DNA of 64,000 bases from Methanofervidicoccus sp. A16 (GTDB lineage: Archaea; AGJL01; Methanococci; Methanococcales; Methanococcaceae), in NCBI RefSeq assembly GCF_003351865.1, contig NZ_CP022242.1, positions 1,426,001-1,490,000 on the forward strand. Reading direction: 5' to 3'. Positions 18,066 to 54,415 of the stretch are shown here, piece by piece. The first letter of the stretch is position 1. Each line of letters begins with the position of its first letter. Under the pieces are notes generated by a model. The model searched no databases and was not told the origin of the DNA. It saw only the letters and a list, made by a program, of their open reading frames with translations. The position numbers were made by a program, and so were the translations under genes.

Positions 18066-18339
18066 ACCCTAATTCCCATCAAAAAATCCTGATAAGAATA
18101 GCAATAATTATAATAAAAAAGTTAATTATAATAAAAATATAAAAAGAAGATATTAAAACCAAAATAAGAGATAATCTCCTAAGATTGCCCTAAGATACTA
18201 TAGAAGTGGAGCAGATCCTTCTTAGCAGGTTGCTATTATTAATTTTGTTAAAAGTATTATATTTTAATAATATTTTAATATTTTTTCAGTTTTTATTATT
18301 TTTTATTATTCAAATCATTACTTTGATGGGAATTAAGGT
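18066..18339 (+). mobile_element. MITE-like element, family B, copy B1
   Basis: In the gap 17638-18438. The element runs from ACCCTAATTCCCATCAAA to TTTGATGGGAATTAAGGT and is flanked by a perfect 9 bp direct repeat TTAAAATTT at 18057-18065 and 18340-18348. The B core is GAAGTGGAGCAGATCC followed by TTCTTAGCAGGTTGCT. The rest of the gap is AT-rich; I see no gene in it. Confidence 0.88.
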
Positions 18340-30007: not shown

Positions 30008-30402
30008 ACCCTAATTCCCATCAAAAAATTCTGATAAAAACAATAATAATTATAAAAAATAAAAGTATAAAAAGAAGGGTATTAAAATCAAAATAAGAGA
30101 TAAATAATCTCCTCCTGGGACGCTCTAAGATACCTATAGAAGTGGAGCAGATCCTTCTTAGCAGGTTGCTATTATTAATTTTTATTAAAGGATTGTATTT
30201 TAATAATATTTTAATATTTTTTCAGTTTTTATTTATTTTTATTATTTAAATCATTACTTTAAATGGGAATAAGGTTATTTACTTTTTATCCCTATCCCTT
30301 CAGAATTATTTTATTGTTATTATTCTTAAGATTTTTATTATTTTTTATTATGATTATTATTTTTATTATTCTTCTAACTACAATCTTGATGGGAACTAAG
30401 GT
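30008..30402 (+). mobile_element. Composite MITE, B2 plus module D2
   Basis: In the gap 29556-30630. B2 (30008-30275) runs from ACCCTAATTCCCATCAAA to TTAAATGGGAATAAGGT and contains the core GAAGTGGAGCAGATCC plus TTCTTAGCAGGTTGCT. D2 (30276-30402) ends CTTGATGGGAACTAAGGT. The composite is flanked by the perfect 8 bp repeat GAATATTA at 30000-30007 and 30403-30410. Sequence 29556-29999 is AT-rich with no recognised feature. Confidence 0.87.
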
Positions 30403-38289: not shown

Positions 38290-39480
38290 TTATTCTTTTA
38301 TCATATCTACAGCCTTTAATCCAATCTTAGCAACTTCTTCTGGTAATCCTACATATCCTTCTGCCAGGTTCTCTGGCTTCTGTCCCTCAGTTAATACCCA
38401 TCTTAGGAAATCCTTAATAGCCTTAGCCTCCTCTGGACTGTAGTGTTTGTGGTTTATATTCTCCCAGACTAGGAAGTGTGTGAATGCTACTATTGGATAG
38501 GCATTCTCGCCAGGGGCGTCTAACAACTGTTTTGTATCTTCTTTGTATCCTTCTTTAGGTTCTGGTATGTAAGCCTTAACACCTGCAACAGCTGCCTTAA
38601 TTGTATCTGTATCTGGTTTAATAAACTTACCTTCTTTGTTTTCTATGGCAGCAGTTGGTAGATTATTTTCAATGGTATAGGACAATTCGGTGTATGCTAT
38701 ACTGTACTTAGTACTCTGTAATGTATTGATTACTCCAGAGTTACCCTTTCCTCCAACTCCTCTACCTACCTTATCAACTGGCCAGTCTACAAGTTTTCCA
38801 CTTCCTACTTCCTTAGCCCACTCCTCACTTATCATACTTAGGAATGTTGTGAATATCTTTGTGGTACCACTACTGTCACTTCTGTGTACAACTATTATTT
38901 TCTCATGTGGTAGTTTATCTGCAACATCTGGGTTCAACTTCTTTATTCTCTCGTCATCCCAGTATTCGATCTTCCCTAGGAATATATCTGCCAATACATC
39001 CCTACTTAACTTTAAGGTATGATCTCCAATCTCTGGAATATTGTAGGTTATAACTACCGCTCCCACGATCTCTGGGAACTGCAATGGCTGATCTCCAGTT
39101 TCTAAGAACTTCTTCCACATCTCCTCTTTTACTGGTGGATCTGTTCTTCCAATGTGTGTAAGACCCATTAAGAAGTCTTTCTGTCCCTTTCCACTTCCTC
39201 CTCCTTCGTATTCAATCTTTACATTTGGATTTATCTTCTGATACTCAGCTATCCATTTCTGTACCTGATACTTTGGGAATGTTGCTCCAGAGGTTCTAAT
39301 TGTAATAGTTTTAGGGGCAGTTGTAGGCTTGGTTGCTGGCTGAGTAGTTTCTTGAGGTGAGGTTGTAGGTGTAGTAGTCTCTTGAGACTGGGCCTTCTCT
39401 TCAGTACCCATACATCCACTTAGGGATACTACTGGAATAATAAGTAATATCCCTAAAATTAATGCTATCGCCTTCTTCAA
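38290..39480 (-). CDS. pstS: Phosphate-binding lipoprotein PstS
   Basis: A 396-residue periplasm-facing substrate-binding protein. It has a lipoprotein signal (LSGC at residues 20-23), a Thr/Pro-rich linker of about 30 residues, then the phosphate-binding fold: TIRTSGATFPKYQVQKW, YEGGGSGKGQKDFL, HRSDSSGTTKIFTTFL and GKGNSGVINTL, whose Ser and Gly residues bind phosphate. The start codon is TTG, preceded by GGTGATACG. The first 34 residues and the upstream DNA are nearly identical to those of the carbonic anhydrase gene next upstream (28 of 34 residues). This links the two 5' ends by recent duplication or conversion. Expression is presumably phosphate-dependent; no experimentally known box is visible. 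Confidence 0.95.
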   Translation of the reverse strand: MKKAIALILGILLIIPVVSLSGCMGTEEKAQSQETTTPTTSPQETTQPATKPTTAPKTITIRTSGATFPKYQVQKWIAEYQKINPNVKIEYEGGGSGKGQKDFLMGLTHIGRTDPPVKEEMWKKFLETGDQPLQFPEIVGAVVITYNIPEIGDHTLKLSRDVLADIFLGKIEYWDDERIKKLNPDVADKLPHEKIIVVHRSDSSGTTKIFTTFLSMISEEWAKEVGSGKLVDWPVDKVGRGVGGKGNSGVINTLQSTKYSIAYTELSYTIENNLPTAAIENKEGKFIKPDTDTIKAAVAGVKAYIPEPKEGYKEDTKQLLDAPGENAYPIVAFTHFLVWENINHKHYSPEEAKAIKDFLRWVLTEGQKPENLAEGYVGLPEEVAKIGLKAVDMIKE

Positions 39481-39639
39481 CGTATCACCAAATATTCTTT
39501 TTTAACATTCATCTATTAGGTCATATAATAGTATATAAAATTTTCTATATAGAATTATATTTCATAAAATATGAATATTATATATTAGCCAAAATTAATA
39601 ATATTGTATCTGTATAAAAAAATAGATAAAAAAATAGAT

Positions 39640-40446
39640 TTAATCTTTATACAGTTCCAATGGGATGAAATTATCCTTTTCTTGATCGTAATATTCAATC
39701 TCTCCAGTCCCTATATTGAAGTACCATCCATGTATGGAGAGTTCCCCATTTTCTACCCTTCTCTTTACCCCTGGATAGGTCATAAGGTTTTTAATCTGGA
39801 ACTTTATGGAAGTCTTCTCAGTAAGTTCTGCAAGTTCCTCTTTATCCACTGTCTTATTCCCGATCTCCTTTAAAACATACTCCTTAACTGGCTCTGCCAC
39901 TTTTAACCACTTTTTTATAGCCATCATCTCTGGATCCTCTGGAATATCTTGGTAGAGTGCTTTACAGGCCCCACACTGTGAGTGGCCACAGACTATGATA
40001 TGATCCACTTCTAACACAGAAACTGCATACTCTATTGCCGATGCAACACCACTGTATTCTAGGGCAGATTCATAAGGTGGTACAAAGTTCCCTATAACTC
40101 TCAGGACGAAGAGATCTCCAGGATCACTTTTTGTTATTATACTTGGAACAACCCTTGAATCACTACATGTGATGAAGAGCACCTTTGGTTTTTGACCCTC
40201 TTCAGCCAATTTAGTGAATAGATCTTTATTCTTTTCATAGTAGTCCTTTCTGTACTCTTTATAGTTTTTTATTAGCGTTTTCAGATCTTTACCTTCCACG
40301 CTTACAACCTCCTGTCTATTTTTAGTAGTTGGCTTAGCAGGGGATTCCTGAGGTTGGGCATTCTCTTCAGTACCTATACATCCACTTAGGGATACTACTG
40401 GAATAATAAGTAATATCCCTAAAAGTAGGGCTACTATCTTCTTCAA
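39640..40446 (-). CDS. Exported lipoprotein beta-class carbonic anhydrase
   Basis: A 268-residue protein combining a PstS-like lipoprotein signal (MKKIVALLLGILLI, lipobox LSGC at residues 20-23) with a complete beta-class carbonic anhydrase. Zinc and catalytic residues are in ITCSDSRVVP (Cys, Asp, Arg) and CGHSQCGACKALY (His, Cys). The domain continues normally to SIHGWYFNIGTGEIEYYDQE at the end. The enzyme interconverts CO2 and bicarbonate; with this signal it would be anchored outside the cell membrane, whereas archaeal beta-class enzymes are usually cytosolic. Start codon TTG after GTAGGTGGTATC, as in pstS. It lies 159 bp upstream of the pstS start, on the same strand, with its own promoter. 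Confidence 0.88.
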   Translation of the reverse strand: MKKIVALLLGILLIIPVVSLSGCIGTEENAQPQESPAKPTTKNRQEVVSVEGKDLKTLIKNYKEYRKDYYEKNKDLFTKLAEEGQKPKVLFITCSDSRVVPSIITKSDPGDLFVLRVIGNFVPPYESALEYSGVASAIEYAVSVLEVDHIIVCGHSQCGACKALYQDIPEDPEMMAIKKWLKVAEPVKEYVLKEIGNKTVDKEELAELTEKTSIKFQIKNLMTYPGVKRRVENGELSIHGWYFNIGTGEIEYYDQEKDNFIPLELYKD

Positions 40447-40497
40447 GATACCACCTACAGTTCTTTTTTTAACATATATCTATAAGGTCATTAACGG

Positions 40498-40544
40498 TAT
40501 ATATAATTTTCCTACACGAATAATATTATTCGCTACGAATAATA
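40498..40544 (-). promoter_or_regulatory. Promoter of the carbonic anhydrase gene with palindromic operator
   Basis: The minus strand has the TATA box TTATATATACC at 40498-40507. Ten bases further upstream lies a perfect 16 bp palindrome CGAATAATATTATTCG (40517-40532), and after three bases another half-site CGAATAATA (40536-40544). Position just upstream of TATA/BRE suits an activator, or a repressor overlapping BRE. The pstS promoter (39500-39590) is alignable with this one but its palindrome is altered. Confidence 0.5.
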
Positions 40545-40652: not shown

Positions 40653-41510
40653 ATGATGACTACTCTAAAAACTATAATATTGATGGCCCTACTGACGGGA
40701 ATACTCTATGGGGCATGTTTACTGTTCCATATTCACCCTCTAATTGCCATAATAATTGCACTGATACCTAACCTTATTGCCTACTTCTTCAGCGATAAGA
40801 TAGTACTTATGAGTTACGGGGCGAGGATAGTAGATGAGAGGGAGGCACCTTATCTCCACAGGATTGTAGAGAAGGTGGCAAGAAGGGCAGGTATTCCAAA
40901 ACCGAAGGTTGCCATAATAGACACTCCAACACCAAATGCCTTTGCAACAGGTAGAAGTCCAAAACATGGAGTGGTGGCAGTTACTACGGGAATTATGGAT
41001 CTACTTAACTCCCAGGAACTGGAGGGGGTAATTGCCCACGAGGTAAGTCATATAAAAAATAGGGATATTCTTATAGGCTCTATAGTGGCAGTACTTGCAG
41101 GGGCTATTGTATACCTTGCAGATATGCTCCAGTGGGGATTATTCTTTGGATTCACTAGGGACGATGAAGATAATCCCTTCCAGTTTATTGGTTCTATACT
41201 CTTTATAATACTTGCACCAATTGCGGCAACCCTTATACAGTTTGCCATCTCTAGACAGATGGAGTTCCGTGCAGATGAAGGAGGGGCTAGATATTCCCAT
41301 CCACTCTATCTGGCGAATGCACTAATCAAACTTGAAAAAGGAGTAAGTATGTATCCTTTAGATAGAGGCAATCCAGCAACTGCACACCTCTTTATAGTAA
41401 ATCCATTTAGAGGGGAAAGTATACTAAAACTCTTTTCCACACACCCACCAACAGAGGAGAGGGTAAAGAGACTTCTAGAAATGGCAAAAAATCCAAGGTA
41501 TCTACAATAA
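40653..41510 (+). CDS. htpX: Protease HtpX homologue
   Basis: A 285-residue membrane metalloprotease of the M48 family. Two hydrophobic segments lie at residues 6-45, and two more after the zinc motif. The active site is [12 protein letters not shown] (HExxH), and the third ligand Glu lies in [22 protein letters not shown] and [13 protein letters not shown] are conserved ahead of it. HtpX removes damaged membrane proteins. GGAGGGATAAGG precedes the ATG at 40653; ATG 40656 is equally possible. It diverges from the carbonic anhydrase. Confidence 0.93.
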
Positions 41511-51056: not shown

Positions 51057-51402
51057 ACCCCAATTCCCATCAAAAAATTCTGATAAGAATAGCAATAATT
51101 ATAAAAAATAAAAGTATAAAAGGAAGGTATTAAAATCCAGAATAAAAGATAATTTCCTGGAATGCTCTAAGATGCTATGGAAGTGAAGTAGATTCTTCTT
51201 AATAGATAGCATTAATTTTAATCATTTTTTTCAGTTTTTTTTATTATTTAAATCATTACTTTGATGGGAATTAAGGTTATTCACTTTTTTATTTCTATAT
51301 CTTTAGAATTATTTTATTATTACTCTTAAGATTTTTATTATTTTTTATTATGATTATTATTTTTATTATTCTTCTAATTACAATCTTGATGGGAACTAAG
51401 GT
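51057..51402 (+). mobile_element. Composite MITE, B3 plus module D3
   Basis: In the gap 50709-51483. B3 (51057-51277) begins ACCCCAATTCCCATCAAA and ends TTTGATGGGAATTAAGGT; D3 (51278-51402) ends CTTGATGGGAACTAAGGT. The composite is flanked by a perfect 11 bp direct repeat ATTATTTATAA at 51046-51056 and 51403-51413. The B core is eroded here (GAAGTGAAGTAGATTC). Sequence 50709-51045 is AT-rich with a patch TAACTGTTTGTAGAG, not recognised. Confidence 0.87.
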
Positions 51403-53868: not shown

Positions 53869-54415
53869 ACCCTAGTTCCCATCAAAAGAATAGTTTAAAG
53901 AATAAAATAAAAATAATTATAAAAATAATAAAGAAAATGTTTAAAAATAAAAACTTCTATTATTCCAAATTTTAAAAAAGGAGATTGAAGGGAAATGAAC
54001 CTCTGTATATTTTCTAATATAGGAAATTAGAATAAGATCTCCTATCTTACCTAAGGGTTCGGAAAGATCCTAAGGATATTTAATATTTTTATATTGAACC
54101 TTACTCCCATCAAAAATTCTAATAAGAATAATAATAATTATAAAAAATAAAAGAATATAAAAAGAAGGTATTAAAATCAAAATAAGAGATAATCTTTCTA
54201 GGACGCTCTAAGATACTATGGAGAAGTGGAGCAGATCCTTCTTAGCAGGTTGCTATTATTAATTTTGTTAAAAGTATTATATTTTAATAATATTTCAATA
54301 TTTTTCAGTTTTTATTATTTTTTATTATTTTTATCATTACTTTGATGGGAATTAAGGTTTTTATATTGATTATTTTCATTATTCATTTAATCACTTACTT
54401 AATGGGGACTAAGTT
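53869..54415 (+). mobile_element. MITE-like element, family A, copy A5 (split by B4)
   Basis: In the gap 53713-54846. The left part (53869-54097) begins ACCCTAGTTCCCATCAAAAG and carries the full A core. The right part (54359-54415) has the family A tail TTATATTGATTATTTTC and ends TTAATGGGGACTAAG. The two are separated by a complete B element. The 11 bases TTTTATATTGA occur at both junctions (54087-54097 and 54359-54369), whereas A copies without an insert have this sequence once. Confidence 0.85.
54098..54358 (+). mobile_element. MITE-like element, family B, copy B4 (inside A5)
   Basis: A complete 261 bp B element from ACCTTACTCCCATCAAA to TTTGATGGGAATTAAGGT; the ends match inversely at 17 of 18 positions. 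The core is GAAGTGGAGCAGATCC followed by TTCTTAGCAGGTTGCT. Its insertion point inside A5 with an 11 bp duplication fixes the element ends exactly and shows that B is mobile or was mobile after A was in place. Confidence 0.9.

Follow-up and report, generated by a model that had tools for sequence, protein, structure and literature searches.

The carbonic anhydrase (CA) CcaA is a carboxysomal enzyme that is not known to carry a lipoprotein signal. Methanogens are represented by the gamma-class CA Cam of Methanosarcina, for which activity on the external side of the membrane has been proposed (PMC7399021) and a signal peptide noted (PMC5746736), and by the signal-less Cab-type beta-CAs (PDB 1g5c) of about 150-180 amino acids. 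In Bacteria, export of certain beta-CAs is predicted from an N-terminal signal (PMC5746736). A system in which a segment of adjacent or paired genes is kept alike in each strain by gene conversion is found in the babA and babB genes of Helicobacter pylori (PMC3960876).

The CA considered here is encoded next to pstS in Methanofervidicoccus sp. A16 (genome G000), within a window of 64,000 nucleotides that comprises the whole stretch of DNA analyzed (Table 1). Its best sequence and fold matches are the CcaA and plant-type beta-CAs (PDB 5swc, 1ekj), with which it shares the zinc ligands and the Asp-Arg dyad, but unlike CcaA the enzyme has in front of it a lipobox followed by some 30 residues of spacer. 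Cam likewise belongs to a methanogen, and the CA would resemble it in acting on the outer side, but Cam has an unrelated fold, was proposed for acetate-grown cells, is not a lipoprotein of this kind and has no link to pstS. The Cab-type enzymes belong to the same Pfam family, but are shorter, lack a signal and show only weak similarity. The signal-bearing beta-CAs of PMC5746736 are bacterial and of separate origin, and no signal common with a neighboring gene is described there. Finally, babA and babB encode paralogous adhesins with a common 3' segment, whereas CA and PstS are unrelated proteins that have only a promoter-signal module in common. A literature search that covered only a minority of the subscription journals found no archaeal lipoprotein beta-CA combining a neighbor-homogenized module with an operator that points to another regulon, and a search on this CA in Methanothermococcus yielded nothing specific.

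Table 1. Features of the CA-pstS locus, in positions of the window
Feature	Position	Strand	Basis
pstS, donor of signal and promoter core, TTG start	38290..39480	-	TIGR00975, 406 bits
Duplicated 5' segment, copy at pstS	39380..39545	-	84% match to CA segment
pst box TTCATAAAATATGAA preceding pstS, not present in the CA promoter of G000	39561..39575	.	promoter comparison
Beta-class CA with lipoprotein signal	39640..40446	-	intact ORF, 268 aa, TTG start
Catalytic beta-CA domain	39697..40182	-	Zn ligands C94, H155, C158 and D96-R98 dyad
Glu/Gln/Thr/Lys-rich spacer, residues 24-53, from lipidation-site Cys to enzyme domain	40288..40377	-	sequence; predicted disordered
Duplicated/homogenized 5' segment in full, from promoter core through leader, TTG and signal to linker start	40346..40511	-	84% to 39380-39545
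Run of 49 nt matching pstS 39410-39458 exactly, the most recent conversion tract; codon bases 23-71	40376..40424	-	run test p=0.0004
Captured lipoprotein signal, residues 1-23, LKKIVALLLGILLIIPVVSLSGC, lipobox LSGC	40378..40446	-	90% DNA identity to same-genome pstS signal; hydropathy
BRE/TATA of CA promoter, pstS-derived core	40496..40512	-	alignment to pstS promoter
Palindrome GAATAATATTATTC, putative Eha-type operator	40518..40531	.	PWM from eha sites 21.1; exact copy unique in genome
M48 protease gene, divergent neighbor, marks conserved insertion site	40653..41510	+	PF01435; synteny

On every feature tested, the gene product is a beta-class CA. The Pro_CA domain of Pfam is recognized over residues 89-250 with 172.2 bits against a cut-off of 25.7, and sequence comparison finds all five catalytic residues in place. 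The best solved relative is cyanobacterial CcaA (PDB 5swc; sequence E=2.7e-49, Foldseek 41% identity); the AlphaFold model, built from four sequences and mediocre in quality (pLDDT 64), serves for fold assignment only. The protein is longer than a Cab-type enzyme of about 170 amino acids, and 1g5c is its weakest PDB match (26 bits). No Cab-type CA is present in the genome of strain A16, and many other Methanococcales have a short Cab-type CA in place of the CcaA type. A second CcaA-type CA of 240 amino acids is encoded elsewhere in the A16 genome (1029369-1030091 of C1; locus L003 7361-8083, minus strand). It has no signal but carries a Glu/Thr-rich, lipoprotein-like linker similar to that of the signal-bearing CA, which suggests, without proving it, descent from an exported form. 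Its third-position identity to every relative is at most about 66%, and thus it is not a recent copy of the CA gene in the window.

The N-terminus of the CA has a KK n-region, a hydrophobic core IVALLLGILLIIPVV with a mean hydropathy of 3.3 and a lipobox containing Cys23, in agreement with the archaeal lipoprotein pattern of [L][AS][GA]C near residue 20-25 together with an n-region and a core. Residues 1-53 have a pLDDT below 50 and are predicted to be disordered. The CA is predicted to be exported and lipid-anchored at Cys23. The first-pass annotation of this DNA had noticed that the signal resembles that of PstS, and its counts hold: 28 of the first 34 residues are identical, both genes start with TTG, and the stretch of identical DNA, given as more than 40 bp, reaches 49 nt in its longest exact run. 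The promoters, which it had called alignable, align in the BRE/TATA core only; the operators do not, the pst box being gone and an Eha-type box standing in its place. The 5' likeness of CA and pstS is far beyond chance. The segment matches over 166 bp with E=2.4e-44, and the next match in the 1.5-Mb genome has E=0.04, by which a generic lipoprotein signal as the source of the likeness is rejected. With the 39 residues of the signal as a protein query, CA and PstS are the only matches.

The first-pass annotation had also suggested asking whether the signal in each species resembles that of its own PstS, as expected from gene conversion, and the CA 5' end does so in each of the three genomes compared, namely G000, Methanothermococcus sp. 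SCGC AD-155-E23 (G032, locus L004) and G031. Over the 69 nt of the signal, CA and the pstS of the same genome are 100% (G032), 94% (G031) and 90% (G000) identical, and the CA orthologs are 67-86% identical to each other. For G032, no difference separates CA from pstS across 130 nt (-25 to +104). The G031 leaders agree in 96% of the aligned bases, and leader plus signal in 170 of 188. In a tree of the 5' region, the CA of G031 joins its own pstS (96%) and that of G032 joins the pstS of G032 and G026 (99%); forcing CA monophyly on this tree costs 107.5 units of lnL and is rejected (AU p=7.7e-8), and with it a single old duplication without later exchange. A run test gives uncorrected p values of 0.0002 (G032), 0.0004 (G000) and 0.08 (G031, not significant), and when corrected for the 66 pairs the values for G032 and G000 become about 0.013 and 0.026. 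In the CA of G000, the first 22 bases are like the CA of G032 and the next 49 equal the local pstS, as expected from a conversion tract of limited length. As read from these comparisons, the CA and pstS 5' ends are kept alike by repeated gene conversion within genomes.

The CcaA-type CA is restricted to one genus among the 36 Methanococcales genomes surveyed. The gene order of M48 (divergent), CA, pstS, pstC and pstA is common to G000, G032 and G031, and is also found in G026 (locus L005). In G022 and G028, relatives that have no CA, the M48 gene adjoins pstS at a distance of about 180-210 bp. Excision of a cassette at the direct repeats as the source of the CA-less loci is unsupported, as the pst box, unchanged or in closely similar form, is present in the promoters there. 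In G025, a contig with the CA-type promoter ends and a contig with pstS starts with the identical 95 bp; we infer that the CA is present and that a short contig was dropped by the assembler through the long CA/pstS repeat. The signal is not retained throughout the genus: in G026 the CA ORF is intact but lacks both the signal and an Eha-type box, and G027 has a CA pseudogene (L045 4534-4985) with stop codons, deletions and a damaged pstS-like signal with the lipobox LNRC. The loss of the signal in G026, the broken CA of G027 and the signal-less second CA of G000 show that the trait is dispensable.

These losses bear on two alternative explanations. The signal might be untranslated or ignored, with translation starting downstream, for instance at the GTG of codon 50, and the product would then be a cytosolic CA that makes bicarbonate for carboxylations after loss of the Cab-type enzyme. 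Signal-less versions do exist, in G026 and in the paralog of G000, with an in-frame ATG where the exported forms have GTG/Val, and the absence of a Cab-type CA from G000 fits as well. However, the search of relatives for lipobox-bearing beta-CAs, also put forward in the first-pass annotation, finds reading frame, lipobox and ribosome-binding region intact at the same locus in G000, G032 and G031, the lipobox being lost only in the G027 pseudogene. Start and signal are moreover renewed together by the repeated conversion, and a signal-less CA is already available in G000, which makes a cytosolic product unlikely. Alternatively, the 5' ends of two adjacent homologous genes may exchange mechanically, so that the CA signal would be a neutral by-product without a selected role. 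Close direct repeats favor conversion, and the losses in G026 and G027 are in line with such neutrality, but a distinct and conserved operator has persisted through the homogenization of the remaining 5' module. The CA gene itself also stands out, the third codon positions of its body being 83% identical between G000 and G032 as opposed to 60-70% in each of five flanking genes (Fisher p 5e-4 to 1e-8). This suggests transfer of the CA gene from one lineage to another at the M48-pstS locus, with a stronger codon constraint on the CA as an alternative explanation of the high identity. Taken together, a neutral signal appears improbable.

The direction of the capture can be read from the distribution of the parts. 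PstS-type signals are spread across Methanococcales, including species without this CA, and the N-terminal extension is absent from the nearest CA relatives seen outside the genus, in Arcobacter (L006, 215 aa, 49-50% identity) and Sulfurovum (211 aa, 49%). The scan for CA relatives in the collection yielded only three loci. Hence the module passed from pstS to the CA and not the other way. That a CA gene captured the 5' end of pstS, as proposed in the first-pass annotation, is well supported, but the present identity is the product of repeated conversion instead of the fossil of one duplication and, for this reason, cannot date the capture.

The operator of the CA promoter is not that of pstS, and the promoter comparison rejects an operator common to both genes. 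At pstS, the box TTCATATTTTATGAA lies upstream of BRE/TATA, and many genomes of the order have it close to pstS. The palindrome TTCATAWWWTATGAA occurs upstream of pstS in many genomes and is a candidate archaeal phosphate box. Against this palindrome, the CA promoter of G000 has five mismatches versus none at pstS, and the CA promoter of G032 retains a relic of the pst box (2 mismatches, p=0.007) beside the new one. The new box, GAATAATATTATTC, is accompanied in G000 by a third half-site GAATAA at 40537-40542. With a PWM made from eha sites, the CA site scores 21.1 bits and the runner-up within the 64 kb 12.0, and the palindrome appears in 0 of 20000 simulated intergenic sequences. The exact 14-mer occurs once each in G000 and G032, both times at the CA, and once in 12 other genomes, each time ahead of an HTH_3 protein gene that ehaA follows. 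A box is present upstream of this HTH-ehaA operon in most of Methanococcales, the eha operon of G000 itself having a version with one mismatch, GAATAAAATTATTC. The CA boxes of G025 and G031 also have one mismatch (simulation p=0.0005 and 0.003), and the Eha-type box is never found at pstS. One-mismatch matches to GAATAATATTATTC in G000 do not exceed those of the reversed control pattern (14 control matches), and thus the argument for the operator rests on exact matches, position and recurrence in four species. An operator belonging to the divergent M48 gene is unlikely, as the M48-pstS interval of the CA-less G022 and G028 is boxless (at least 4 mismatches).

The CA thus carries RRATAAYRTTATTC near its core promoter, the feature by which a putative Eha regulon can be recognized. 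Throughout Methanococcales, the conserved HTH_3 protein is a candidate for the regulator of the Eha hydrogenase operon, and the palindrome RRATAAYRTTATTC near the core promoter a candidate for its operator. At the CA this palindrome precedes BRE/TATA, but at eha it lies downstream of TATA, and the sign of control could therefore differ between the two. With the pst operator lost and an Eha-type operator in its place, co-regulation of the CA with phosphate uptake is unlikely. This also affects the idea that the exported CA is de facto part of the pst operon, serving phosphate uptake or local pH beside PstS by supplying protons or bicarbonate. The CA does adjoin pstSCA on the same strand, with the same export signal and promoter core, but most pst operons of Methanococcales have no CA and the pst box is absent or decayed at the CA promoter, leaving such a role with little probability.

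We infer the localization, activity, regulation and physiological role of the CA from its sequence. The reading preferred here, which we consider probable, is that of an active beta-CA of bacterial type (CcaA/plant-like), lipid-anchored outside the cell, that equilibrates bicarbonate and CO2 at the surface and is co-controlled with Eha. A gene for a soluble CA, located between M48 and pstS, would have acquired a copy of the pstS 5' module, with promoter core, leader, TTG start and signal, upon which the CA would be exported and lipidated at Cys23, with the flexible spacer holding it outside the membrane. Gene conversion within the genome re-homogenizes the modules of CA and pstS, and, as far as the pattern goes, the pst operator of the CA has given way to the palindrome that elsewhere precedes the HTH-regulator-ehaA operon. 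Formylmethanofuran dehydrogenase uses CO2 and not bicarbonate (Vorholt and Thauer 1997, as cited in PMC10880623), and an extracytoplasmic CA is able to hold external dissolved inorganic carbon near equilibrium (PMC10880623). The energy-converting hydrogenase Eha couples H2 oxidation to the reduction of ferredoxin, which in turn serves CO2 reduction; it is an essential enzyme with an anaplerotic function (PMC10025317; PMC3087415). In Methanocaldococcus, eha transcripts drop under H2 limitation (Topcuoglu 2019, as cited in PMC10025317). A surface CA might thus keep CO2 near equilibrium with the larger bicarbonate pool when H2 is plentiful and the demand for CO2 highest, so that CO2, the substrate of formylmethanofuran dehydrogenase, would not be locally depleted and would diffuse into the cell.

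A more tentative extension, to which we give somewhat less than even weight, is that the exported CA and Eha make up a very small regulon governed by a single HTH protein, in which a surface arm for CO2 supply is wired to the arm that provides reductant for CO2 reduction, the CA being a horizontally acquired bacterial enzyme that was fused to the pstS export module and had its operator swapped. The locus of these deep-sea-vent methanogens indicates that an archaeon can turn a cytosolic enzyme into a surface enzyme in a single step by borrowing the promoter-signal module of a neighbor, and that such a module can stay alike between two unrelated proteins through gene conversion. If the reading of the operator is true, a candidate regulator and a second target are named for the essential Eha hydrogenase, and it becomes possible to test directly how hydrogenotrophic vent methanogens acquire CO2, a process commonly taken to be passive.

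Several minor observations were made alongside. The HTH_3 gene directly upstream of ehaA in G000 lies at C1 307350-308047 (locus L088), with homologous sites across Methanococcales. Another Eha-type palindrome with one mismatch, at C1 1073331-1073344 of G000, lies upstream of an OMP decarboxylase-like gene, in the interval that separates it from a divergent neighbor, and may be due to chance; this and the other one-mismatch boxes, located within or at the end of ORFs in G031 and G032, were set aside as probable chance matches. The window further contains dispersed repeats of 50-78 bp, comprising the GAAGTGGAGCAGATCCTTCTTAGCAGG... family and a second AT-rich one, at 18198-18275, 30134-30233 and 54222-54295, and at 30324-30377 and 51324-51377.
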